Source: Rhodanobacter sp.
GTDB lineage: Bacteria; Pseudomonadota; Gammaproteobacteria; Xanthomonadales; Rhodanobacteraceae
DNA: 64,000 bases
Direction: 5' to 3'
Assembly (NCBI GenBank): GCA_027450005.1
Contig: DAIDKO010000030.1
Span: 53,819-117,818, forward strand
Within the stretch, counting starts at the first letter, position 1. Every line of letters begins with the position of its first letter. Both the position numbers and the translations under genes were made by a program. The notes under the pieces are model-generated. The model ran no database searches, had not been told where the DNA came from, and saw only the letters and a program-made list of their open reading frames with translations. Shown here one piece after another: positions 21,185 through 24,603 of the stretch.

Positions 21185-21293
21185 GGCGGCAGCCGTGGAT
21201 TGGCGCACAAGTATAGGCTGCGGATGGCGTGCAGGCCGCATGAAGCCCGCTCCAGGGTTGAGTGGGCGTGGAGTGCGTCGTTATGCTTGCGGC

Positions 21294-21641
21294 ATGCATC
21301 GTTCGTTGCTCCATCCACTGCGTCGCTGTCGCCTGCTGCTTGCAATGGTGCTGTGCGCGTGGCTGGGTCTGGCCGGTTCGGTGTTCGCCCATGACGATTG
21401 CTGCGCCCGCATGCAGGGCTTGGCCGTCGCGCTGACGATGAGCCTTCACCGCGGCGTGCCGGCACCGCTGCACGCGGACGGCGGGCACGCCGATTGCGCC
21501 TGCGCCCACGCGACGGCGACCTTGCCGGAACTGTCCGCGCCCGCGGTGCCGGTGCATCCGGTCGCGACAACGTGGCAGGCCTGGCCGACCGCTACCCCCG
21601 AGCGTCCCCGCGCGCCACCCCTGCGGCCACCGTTGGACTGA
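21294..21641 (+). CDS. copL: CopL-like small Cys/His-rich leader protein upstream of copA
   Basis: Signal peptide, HDDCCARMQG and HADGGHADCACAHA; position before copA/copB. Confidence 0.6.
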   Translation: MHRSLLHPLRRCRLLLAMVLCAWLGLAGSVFAHDDCCARMQGLAVALTMSLHRGVPAPLHADGGHADCACAHATATLPELSAPAVPVHPVATTWQAWPTATPERPRAPPLRPPLD

Positions 21642-21678
21642 CATTCCCGCGATGGCGCCGACCCGGTTCGGCGGGCCA

Positions 21679-21727
21679 CCTGCCTGTGCGCAGGCTTGTT
21701 GCCGCATGTGCGGCGAAGACAGGCGGG
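21679..21727 (+). promoter_or_regulatory. Tandem hairpins with competing outer pairing between copL and copA
   Basis: GCCTG-tgcg-CAGGC, GCCGCA-tg-TGCGGC; alternative CCTGCCTGT with ACAGGCGGG. Confidence 0.5.
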
Positions 21728-21757
21728 ATCCTCGGTGATTCCGCGCAGGAGTGAAGG

Positions 21758-23482
21758 ATGGACACACAGGATCCGCGCGACGGGCAGTTGTCGCGCAGAC
21801 GGTTCGTGCAAGGCCTCGCGCTGGGCGGGGTGGCCGCCGGCTTGGGCCTGCGCGCAGGCACTGCCGTGGCGCAGGCGGTCGCGGTGCGCCGCGAATGGCG
21901 CGGCACGCATTTCGAGCTGGCCGTCGGCGAGCTGCCGGTGAACTTCACCGGACGCAGGCGCATCGCCACCGTGGTCAATGGTCAGCTGCCGGCACCGCTG
22001 CTGCGCTGGCGCGAGGGCGACACGGTGACGCTCAGGGTGACCAACCGCCTGCGCGTGCCAACCTCGATCCACTGGCACGGCATCCTGGTGCCGTTCCAGA
22101 TGGATGGCGTGCCTGGCATCAGCTTCCCCGGCATCGCGCCCGGCGAGAGCTTTATCTACCGTTTCCCGGTACGGCAGAGCGGCACCTACTGGTACCACAG
22201 CCATTCCGGCTTGCAGGAGCAGACCGGGCTGTACGGCCCGCTGGTGATCGAGCCCGCCGGTGGCGAACGCTTCCCTGCCGAGCGCGACTACGTGGTGATG
22301 CTCAACGACTGGTCGGACGACCGTCCCGAACACATCTTCGCGACGCTGAAGCGGCAGAGCGACTACTACAACTACGCGATGCCCACGGTGCCGGACTTCT
22401 TCCGCGACGTGCGCGAGCATGGGCTGGAGCAGGCGCTCGCCCGGCGCCGGATGTGGGAGCGGATGCGCATGAATCCCACCGACTACAGCGACGTGTCGGG
22501 GCACACCTATACCTACTTGGTGAACGGCCACCCCCCGGCCGGCAACTGGACCGGGCTGTTCAGGCCCGGCGAGAAAGTGCGGTTGCGCTTCATCAACGGC
22601 TCGTCGATGACCTTCTTCGACGTGCGCATCCACGGCCTGAAGATGACGGTGGTCGCCGCCGACGGCCAGGACGTGGAGCCGGTGAGCGTCGACGAATTCC
22701 GCATCGCGGTGGCCGAGACCTATGACGTGATCGTGGAGCCGAAGGAAGATCGCGCCTACACGCTGTTCGCACAGGCCATCGACCGCAGCGGCTACGCCCG
22801 CGGCACGCTGGCACCGCGTGCCGGCATGCAGGCGGCGGTGCCCGCGATGGACCCGCTGGTCTGGCTGGGCATGCGGGACATGATGGGAGCGATGAGACAG
22901 GGCGGCACGCATGGGAATAGCGCCATGCCCGGCATGGACATGGGCGCCACCGCTGCCGCGTCGGCTGTGCATCACGCCCGTACCGAGTACGGCCCGGGCG
23001 TGGACATGCACGTGGACATGCCGCGCAGCAACCTCGACGACCCGGGTGCGGGCCTGCGCGGCAACGGTCGACGCGTGCTGACCTACGCCGATCTGCATAC
23101 CATCGGCGGCTCGATCGACCCGCGCGAACCCGGCCGCGAGATCGAGCTGCATCTCACCGGCAACATGGCGCGCTACGAATGGTCCTTCGACGGCGTGAAG
23201 TTCTCCGACGCCAAGCCCATCCGTTTCCGCTACGGCGAGCGGCTGCGCATCGTGCTGGTCAACGACACCATGATGAACCACCCGATCCACCTGCACGGCA
23301 TGTGGAGCGAGCTGGAGAATCCGTCCGGCGGCTTCCAGGTGCGCAAGCACACCGTCAACGTGCAGCCGGCACAGCGGGTGGCCTACGGCGTGACGGCCAA
23401 TGCGCCGGGGCGCTGGGCCTACCACTGCCACATGCTCTACCACATGGACGCGGGCATGATGCGCGAAGTGGTGGTGTCATGA
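21758..23482 (+). CDS. copA: Copper resistance multicopper oxidase CopA
   Basis: Twin-arginine SRRRFVQG, HWHG, HSHSG, HPIHLHG, HCHMLYHM motifs. Confidence 0.93.
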   Translation: MDTQDPRDGQLSRRRFVQGLALGGVAAGLGLRAGTAVAQAVAVRREWRGTHFELAVGELPVNFTGRRRIATVVNGQLPAPLLRWREGDTVTLRVTNRLRVPTSIHWHGILVPFQMDGVPGISFPGIAPGESFIYRFPVRQSGTYWYHSHSGLQEQTGLYGPLVIEPAGGERFPAERDYVVMLNDWSDDRPEHIFATLKRQSDYYNYAMPTVPDFFRDVREHGLEQALARRRMWERMRMNPTDYSDVSGHTYTYLVNGHPPAGNWTGLFRPGEKVRLRFINGSSMTFFDVRIHGLKMTVVAADGQDVEPVSVDEFRIAVAETYDVIVEPKEDRAYTLFAQAIDRSGYARGTLAPRAGMQAAVPAMDPLVWLGMRDMMGAMRQGGTHGNSAMPGMDMGATAAASAVHHARTEYGPGVDMHVDMPRSNLDDPGAGLRGNGRRVLTYADLHTIGGSIDPREPGREIELHLTGNMARYEWSFDGVKFSDAKPIRFRYGERLRIVLVNDTMMNHPIHLHGMWSELENPSGGFQVRKHTVNVQPAQRVAYGVTANAPGRWAYHCHMLYHMDAGMMREVVVS

Positions 23483-24603
23483 GCCGGAACCGTTCGCGCG
23501 CCGCCTTGCGACGCCTCCTGTGGCTGGTAGCGGGGCTGCTGGCTGCGCCTTCCATCGCCGTTGCGCAGACCACGCCCGCCGCGGCCAGCAGCTCGGCGTC
23601 GATGGACAGGGGTTCTATGCCCGGCATGGACATGGTGCAGATGCGCGACATGTCCATGCCGGCGGCAGCGGCCAGCGTCCCTGCGCCCGCCGCGACCAAG
23701 GCTCCCGAGCGCCATCGAAAGCTGTCCGCAAAGCCCATGCACCACGGCGCCACGGCGCGGATGGGCGCGATGCCTGGCATGGAGCTGGACGCGATGCGGA
23801 AGATGGGTAGAGCAGCGGTGCCTGCCGCGAGCGGTACATCGCACGAGCCAGGCACGATGGCCGGCATGCCGATGGGGCCCGTGCAGGGCGGCAGCCCACT
23901 ACCGGGGGCGCGCAGCCCCGACTATTCCGACGGCATCGGCTATGGCGCGATGCCCGGCATGGACATGCGCTACAGCATGCCACTGGACATGCTGCGCTTC
24001 GACCAACTGGAGGCGTTCCACGGCAAGAACGGCAACGGGCTGGCCTGGGAACTGCAGGGCTGGTACGGCGGCGACAGCAACAAGCTGTGGCTGCGCAGCG
24101 AGGGCGAACGCGGCCGTGGCCGCATCCAGGACGGCGACGCCGAGCTGCTGTGGAGCCACGCCGTCGCCGCGTTCTGGGACACGCAGCTCGGCCTGCGCCA
24201 GGACCTGGGCGAAGGGCCTGCGCGCCACTGGGCCGCATTCGGCATCCAGGGCCTGGCGCCTTACTGGTTCGAGCTGGCAGCCACCGCCTACCTCGGGCCG
24301 TCCGGGCGTACCGCGGCCCGCCTGCGCGCGGACTACGAGCTGTTGTTCACGCAACGGCTGATCCTGCAGCCGGAGTTCGAGCTCAACGCCTACGGCCGGT
24401 CCGATCCGGCGCGGCGCCTCGGCGGCGGGGTTTCCGATGCCCGGTTCGGCCTGCGCCTGCGCTGCGAGGTGCGCCGGCAATTTGCGCCCTACCTTGGCGT
24501 GGTCTGGACACGACGCTTCGGCGGCACGGCCGCTTTCGCCCGCGACCATCGCCAAGCCATCTTCGACCGGCAGTGGGTGGCCGGCGTCCGCATCTGGTTC
24601 TGA
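23479..24603 (+). CDS. copB: Copper resistance outer membrane protein CopB
   Basis: Repeated MPGMDM/MPGMEL motifs plus CopB domain (WYGGDSNKLWLRSEGERG). Confidence 0.92.
   Translation: MSRNRSRAALRRLLWLVAGLLAAPSIAVAQTTPAAASSSASMDRGSMPGMDMVQMRDMSMPAAAASVPAPAATKAPERHRKLSAKPMHHGATARMGAMPGMELDAMRKMGRAAVPAASGTSHEPGTMAGMPMGPVQGGSPLPGARSPDYSDGIGYGAMPGMDMRYSMPLDMLRFDQLEAFHGKNGNGLAWELQGWYGGDSNKLWLRSEGERGRGRIQDGDAELLWSHAVAAFWDTQLGLRQDLGEGPARHWAAFGIQGLAPYWFELAATAYLGPSGRTAARLRADYELLFTQRLILQPEFELNAYGRSDPARRLGGGVSDARFGLRLRCEVRRQFAPYLGVVWTRRFGGTAAFARDHRQAIFDRQWVAGVRIWF

Follow-up and report, generated by a model that had tools for sequence, protein, structure and literature searches.

The junction between a small upstream ORF and the copper-resistance gene copA of Rhodanobacter sp. 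probably works as a CutF-like translational switch that responds to copper. By its sequence, the upstream ORF is a leader of the CopL kind. The arrangement around it suggests that the would-be switching element is an anti-Shine-Dalgarno (anti-SD) sequence directly after the leader stop, which pairs with the copA SD around a set of hairpins. The junction lies in a 64,000-nt stretch of DNA (the window), and its features are as follows.

21294..21641, forward strand: leader ORF, CopL-type, 115 aa, with its stop TGA at 21639-21641
21615..21632, forward strand: PPLRPP codons (putative arrest motif), two codons ahead of the stop
21642..21647, forward strand: anti-SD CATTCC, the 5′ arm of helix P0, directly 3′ of the leader stop; pairs with 21748-21753
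21679..21694, forward strand: hairpin P1, CCTGC-ctgtgc-GCAGG; 95.6% of cells paired in nine relatives, with a U-A/C-G double change
21679..21727, forward strand: alternative outer helix, CCTGCCTGT (21679-21687) with ACAGGCGGG (21719-21727); present, not conserved
21699..21716, forward strand: hairpin P2, TTGCCGC-atgt-GCGGCGA, 7 bp (arms 21699-21705 and 21710-21716); 90.5% of cells paired
21723..21744, forward strand: hairpin P3, GCGGGATC-ctcggt-GATTCCGC, lineage-specific (arms 21723-21730 and 21737-21744)
21748..21753, forward strand: copA SD GGAG plus TG (GGAGTG), the 3′ arm of P0; pairs with 21642-21647
21758..23482, forward strand: copA, copper-resistance multicopper oxidase with Tat signal RRRF (TIGR01480, E 2e-284)
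23476..24603, forward strand: copB (PF05275, E 3.2e-82); bounds are those of the scanned frame and the start is approximate

The leader is found immediately upstream of copAB, and a cytochrome-c ORF comes after copB. The spacer between the leader TGA and the copA ATG occupies 21642-21757, with the copA SD (GGAG) at 21748-21751 and the ATG 6 nt downstream at 21758. A search of Rfam over 21200-21900 returned zero families or riboswitches above the gathering score, and a promoter scan of the spacer returned nothing. A terminator scan found no intrinsic terminator (a GC-rich hairpin with a U tract) in the spacer (21641-21757), and a classic terminator/antiterminator attenuator is therefore not indicated; the sole terminator-like site is upstream of the leader, at 21265-21279. 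The folding energy of the region is ordinary for GC-rich DNA (z = -0.54 for 21642-21780 and -0.93 for 21670-21740).

To place the junction among its relatives, CopA was searched in 15 genomes of the genus and 234 of the family, and the flanks were fetched. This yielded 121 leader-copA junctions in the family of the window, of which 118 have distinct spacers; spacer lengths range from 61 to 235 nt. Loci were selected for an RPP near the leader C-terminus and for Cys content, so that the conservation of RPP is by construction. Some genomes carry more than one copy: G171 (locus L019, on contigs C1 and C2) and G064 (locus L040, twice on C1) each harbor two copA copies with identical match scores, and the copA of G171 also occurs on a second contig coinciding with a Rhodanobacter plasmid record. 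These duplicate copA clusters suggest recent transfer of the cluster.

The window leader begins with a signal peptide (LRRCRLLLAMVLCAWL), judged by inspection from the hydrophobic LLLAMVLCAWLGLAG after RR, carries the Cys/His motifs HDDCC and HADCACAH, and ends in RAPPLRPPLD. When it was aligned with 31 homologues, to which it is 19-64% identical, C68 proved nearly invariant and C70 and PLRPP invariant (RPP being a selection criterion), and the CxC is nearly invariant in this protein alignment of 32 leaders. RAPP is also present in the window leader (21609-21620), and its R is not conserved in the alignment. Among the 118 leaders, P is found at -2 in all 118 and L at -1 in 116, the gap from RPP to the stop is exactly two residues in 111, and the last Cys lies 37-43 residues from RPP in 112. 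TGA was considered as a special stop, since it ends 117 of the 118 leaders, yet all 35 scored copA genes end in TGA too and the observation is uninformative. The signal peptide, LRRCRxLFALALCAWL (window 21294-21390), is more alike among the relatives than a generic signal peptide needs, and its AW is nearly invariant across the 32 leaders.

The NF033807 CopL_fam model matches 16 of the 32 aligned leaders, with a best E-value of 1e-10; the window leader itself has no match and is linked to CopL_fam through the alignment alone. In its own genome, the window leader is the only match of our family model (E 1.2e-28). DUF2946 does not match the window leader and matches two of the 32 leaders weakly. 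The window leader resembles leaders of the CutF type in being shorter than 150 aa, in having an N-terminal signal peptide, a PP in the last 15 residues and a downstream gene on the same strand, and in placing a Cys metal motif about 45 residues ahead of the Pro motif (here CxC; 37-43 residues in 112 of the 118 leaders). Two records, L220 and L221, which come from plasmids of Rhodanobacter and Dyella, show no annotated leader ORF immediately before copA, which means that such leaders are easily missed by database searches.

The initial annotation had described two hairpins between the leader stop and the copA start, and both sequences are present within the spacer: GCCTG (21682-21686) with CAGGC (21691-21695), and GCCGC(A) (21701-21705) with (T)GCGGC (21710-21714). 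The conservation of these elements was scored in an alignment of nine genus members. The first hairpin is conserved in the genus in a different register, P1, which pairs CCTGC (21679-21683) with GCAGG (21690-21694) and whose 5′ arm therefore starts three bases upstream of the one described. The second is conserved with compensatory changes and is extended by a U-G and a U-A pair to give P2; one of its pairs occurs as GC, UG, CG and UA among genus relatives. In ensemble folds P2 reaches a probability of 1.00 in all six contexts, and the first hairpin varies. A third hairpin, P3, which the initial annotation did not mention, occurs where the spacer is long: it is kept in L002 and L004 (with a G-U to A-U change) and partly in L008, and is absent from spacers of 87-88 nt. 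Taken together, P1, P2 and P3 have 91.4% of cells paired in the nine relatives and five pairs with double changes. Their covariation score is 0.188 as compared with 0.113 in shuffled alignments (reached by 0 of 500 shuffles), and slid controls are 34-51% paired. The spacer of L004 (L004:1266-1500, 235 nt) carries a strongly palindromic insert of about 120 nt between the leader stop and P1 (TGATTTCGCTCGTCATCCCGGCGAAG...AATGACGAGC...CAATCAGA); P1-P3 and the SD are intact downstream of it, and the P0 arms are thereby pushed apart.

In the window, P0 consists of 6 bp, one of them G-U, and encloses the hairpins. Elsewhere in the family the arms are TTCACTCC/GGAGTGAG in L009, TTACTCCA/TGGAGTAA in L099, CTCTCC/GGAGAG in L005 and many others, CTCCGTT/GACGGAG in L104, TTCCCG/CGGGAA in L095, TCCTTCG/CGAAGGA in L124 and ATCTCCG/CGGAGAT in L136. 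P0 is 8 bp long in L009 and L099. A P0 of at least 6 bp that includes the SD core is formed with the first 14 nt of the spacer in 52% of the 118 loci (47% when weighted by cluster), as compared with 3-11% for six other 14-nt stretches. The placement of the 5′ arm is likewise specific: CTCC occurs 64 times in the first six positions after the stop and one to five times in each 6-nt bin over the rest of the spacer. The first 14 nt are C/T-rich, and for this reason shuffled versions of them still pair over 6 bp or more in some 30% of loci. Since SDs also resemble one another, the appropriate control is to pair each anti-SD with the SDs of other genomes. Spacers were clustered for this purpose by complete linkage; single linkage chained nearly all of them into one cluster. 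With 37 cluster representatives, the anti-SD scores 11.7 against its own SD and 10.2 against foreign ones (z 3.9, p 0.0025). Beyond the SD core, Watson-Crick pairs number 1.29 with the own SD and 0.73 with foreign SDs (37 clusters, p 0.0014). This signal is absent in the stretches before and after the anti-SD, and when the spacers are grouped more broadly, into 27 clusters, the permutation gives a p of just 0.02-0.03. A region 1:2 antiterminator, formed by the leader 3′ end with the interior of the spacer, was also tried, and here the own sequence pairs no better than foreign ones (z -1.2).

An alignment of 41 matches made with a covariance model, and biased towards the structure of that model, contains double changes in six of the seven P0 pairs, and both inner hairpins covary. 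In the group with 110-nt spacers the inner hairpins covary and P0 is nearly invariant. The covariance model of the 80-nt spacer group reaches the window at just E 0.19, too weak a match to establish RNA homology on its own. Among loci fetched after the idea of P0 had been formed, all four with copA downstream have a P0 of at least 5 bp, as compared with 7% in control windows over the whole held-out set; P0 is less frequent in held-out leaders upstream of other genes. About one-third of family loci are without a P0 of at least 5 bp, and the genus relative L003 is without P0. An RNA structure predicted to shield the downstream SD, as in CutF, recurs with covariation across the family, and in the window it is 6 bp long and dependent on context.

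A search for the leader outside the family gave few matches. Most of them precede other genes, either copper-related or unknown, and P0 is not evident in the majority. Group g17 (L244, L247, L248, L249, L256, L259 and L260) comprises CopL-like leaders ending in PLRPPIx that lie upstream of a different exported protein rather than copA; their spacers of 66-73 nt are without an anti-SD after the stop, and the group is a sister use of the leader, perhaps with another mechanism. L227, L235 and L236, from another family of the order, have leaders ending in PDPLRPPIV/IA upstream of a small lipoprotein-like gene, and in these the stop is directly followed by TTCC or ATTCC, opposite GGAA(T) of the SD.

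The predicted stability of P0 in the window depends on how much of copA is folded with it: its probability is 1.00 in the spacer alone, drops to 0.82 once 15 nt of copA are added and is close to 0 from 33 nt onward, where window-specific pairs around the start codon (21726-21732 with 21768-21774) compete with it. Consequently, the case for P0 in the window rests more on homology than on its own energetics. In the window the competing pairs form a perfect 7-bp helix, GGATCCT/AGGATCC, around both the SD and the start codon of copA; this helix was unseen in most genus relatives. Masking the RNA that a ribosome would cover at the leader end raises the predicted accessibility of the SD in the window from 0.37 to 0.94, whereas masks placed elsewhere average 0.29. 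Across the 118 loci, accessibility under this mask exceeds that under control masks in 67% (p 4e-7).

These elements could operate together as follows. A nascent peptide of the CopL type would bind copper through its CxC/His segment, which is situated about 40 residues ahead of PPLRPPxx-stop and hence would lie just outside the ribosome exit tunnel when the C-terminal motif is translated. The copper-bound leader may then slow the ribosome, either on the proline motif or during termination. While it is held at the leader end, the ribosome would occupy the anti-SD and block P0, permitting translation of copA, and once the ribosome departs P0 would close over the copA SD, with P1 and P2 (and in the window P3) in the enclosed loop bringing its distant arms together. 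The layout of the junction and the conservation and covariation of P0 and the hairpins are observed, whereas the copper binding, the slowing of the ribosome and the sign of the response, in which copper opens the SD, are proposed by analogy with CutF. The geometry, obtained by counting, is compatible with this scheme: if the RPP prolines (21627-21632) occupy the P and A sites, the edge of the ribosome would lie near 21642, where the anti-SD starts, and if the stop occupies the A site, it would lie near 21651 and the anti-SD would be covered in full. A precedent for such a placement is RAPP of CruR, which was toeprinted with its prolines in the P and A sites (PMC12992588). The Pro motif of CutF alone did not arrest a LepB fusion (PMC9973294), which counts against the scheme. 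It is about an even call whether the CopL leaders of the Xanthomonadaceae and Rhodanobacteraceae constitute a distinct subclass of copper-sensing nascent-peptide regulators, sharing a dedicated RNA architecture (in order, PLRPP arrest motif, two residues, stop, anti-SD, two to three covarying hairpins, SD) and a copper-held ribosome that masks the anti-SD of a long-range helix.

The initial annotation had proposed that hairpin 1 alternates with the outer helix (21679-21687/21719-21727), the state being set by leader translation. The two arms exist and the helix and hairpin 1 are mutually exclusive, and in the isolated spacer the outer helix reaches a probability of 0.44; this falls to 0-0.08 with at least 33 nt of copA. 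As a conserved switch it did not hold up: a check across homologues found no covariation, its double changes being reached by 180 of 500 shuffles. Only about half of the relatives have letters in both arms, and 70.5% of those cells pair. The 3′ arm lies in an insertion present in L001, L002 and L004 (partly in L008) and missing in the 87-88-nt spacers, L004 breaks three of the nine pairs, and a ribosome at the leader stop falls short of 21679. This particular switch is therefore very improbable. The wider proposal that leader translation senses copper and switches RNA structures fares better, because an ORF of the CopL kind followed by a conserved structured spacer makes control of copA by leader translation through RNA structure the best reading. 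Hardly credible is the view that the pairings merely reflect the high GC content together with a conserved CU-rich tract by the stop that has some other role; the ordinary folding energies and the pairing of shuffled segments agree with it, but the permutation against foreign SDs, the position specificity, the later-fetched loci and hairpin covariation in three lineages do not.

Rho-dependent attenuation as in CruR is unlikely, though it draws on a real precedent. Here, a ribosome dwelling at the proline motif would shield a C-rich rut in the leader 3′ half, early departure would let Rho terminate before copA, and the hairpins would merely stabilise the RNA or pause polymerase. A candidate rut region does exist in the form of a C>G bubble at the leader 3′ half (window 21534-21690), where C reaches as much as 49% with G at 29%, and 98% of homologous leaders have more C than G in their final 120 nt. 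CruR, which works via Rho, combines a RAPP arrest motif with a Cys motif some 45 residues ahead of it and with a spacer that is long and structured (PMC9426467). However, the C-richness follows from Pro and Ala codons at high GC, the anti-SD directly after the stop and its covariation with the SD go unexplained, and copper lowers expression in CruR, the opposite of what a copper-detoxification gene needs. Plain translational coupling, in which terminating ribosomes transiently open P0, copA output simply tracks translation of the leader and copper acts on the promoter only, is about as unlikely. The geometry of P0 would suit any terminating ribosome, and spacers of 61-235 nt imply that a loose mechanism is tolerated; such coupling needs neither an invariant PLRPP nor a fixed distance to the stop nor a near-fixed distance from Cys to RPP, and CutF requires its Cys and Pro motifs (PMC9973294).

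The copper-responsive switch favored here, with the anti-SD as its element, bears on a gene long known to be needed for copper-inducible copAB, and an anti-SD at the stop gives a concrete handle on how copper could reach copA translation. The same leader type precedes copper-resistance genes in soil bacteria as well as in relatives that come into contact with copper sprays. CopL of Xanthomonas and Stenotrophomonas is reported to act only in cis and to be needed for copper-regulated copA (summarised in PMC9973294); it forms SSN cluster 29 and was suggested to be CutF-like (PMC9973294), and its exact role has been called largely unknown (PMC10312155). The window leader resembles CopL as a small exported Cys/His-rich ORF directly upstream of copAB, half of the aligned set (16 of 32 homologues) being matched by NF033807, and differs in lying below detection by that model. 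The literature searched contains no description of RNA structure or a stop-proximal anti-SD for CopL; earlier structural claims for copL/copAB may exist outside it.

Upstream ORFs that sense copper and carry a proline arrest-like motif are already known as a class from CutF and CruR. In Rhodobacter capsulatus (PMC9973294, PMC8456105), CutF likewise has a signal peptide, a Cys motif and a C-terminal proline motif, and its downstream gene, cutO, likewise encodes a Tat-exported multicopper oxidase whose SD is shielded by RNA structure. There, a stem-loop between cutF and cutO shields the cutO SD, and CutF must be translated and must keep its signal peptide, Cys motif and Pro motif, but only if that stem-loop is intact (PMC9973294). 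The two systems differ in that the cutF-cutO spacer is 40 nt long with one stem-loop, whereas here an anti-SD at the stop pairs over 61-235 nt and P0 encloses two or three conserved hairpins; the metal motif is CxxxC in CutF and CxC here. CruR, a DUF2946 protein of Bordetella pertussis (PMC9426467, PMC12992588), is similarly a nascent peptide that senses copper (as predicted here), with a fixed Cys-to-motif distance and a C-terminal motif near the stop, RAPP in CruR and PLRPP here. CruR acts through Rho-dependent termination, copper lowers expression of its TonB transporter, and its signal peptide is dispensable; the combination of DUF2946, CXXC and C-terminal RAPP that marks its kind is not that of the window leader, whose motif is CxC. 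SecM, VemP and MifM are alike in that an arrested ribosome on an upstream ORF opens a downstream SD (PMC9973294), and differ in sensing secretion or insertion rather than copper and in their motifs. If the proposed mechanism is true, CopL groups with CutF as a positive, SD-opening sensor and not with the Rho-based CruR.
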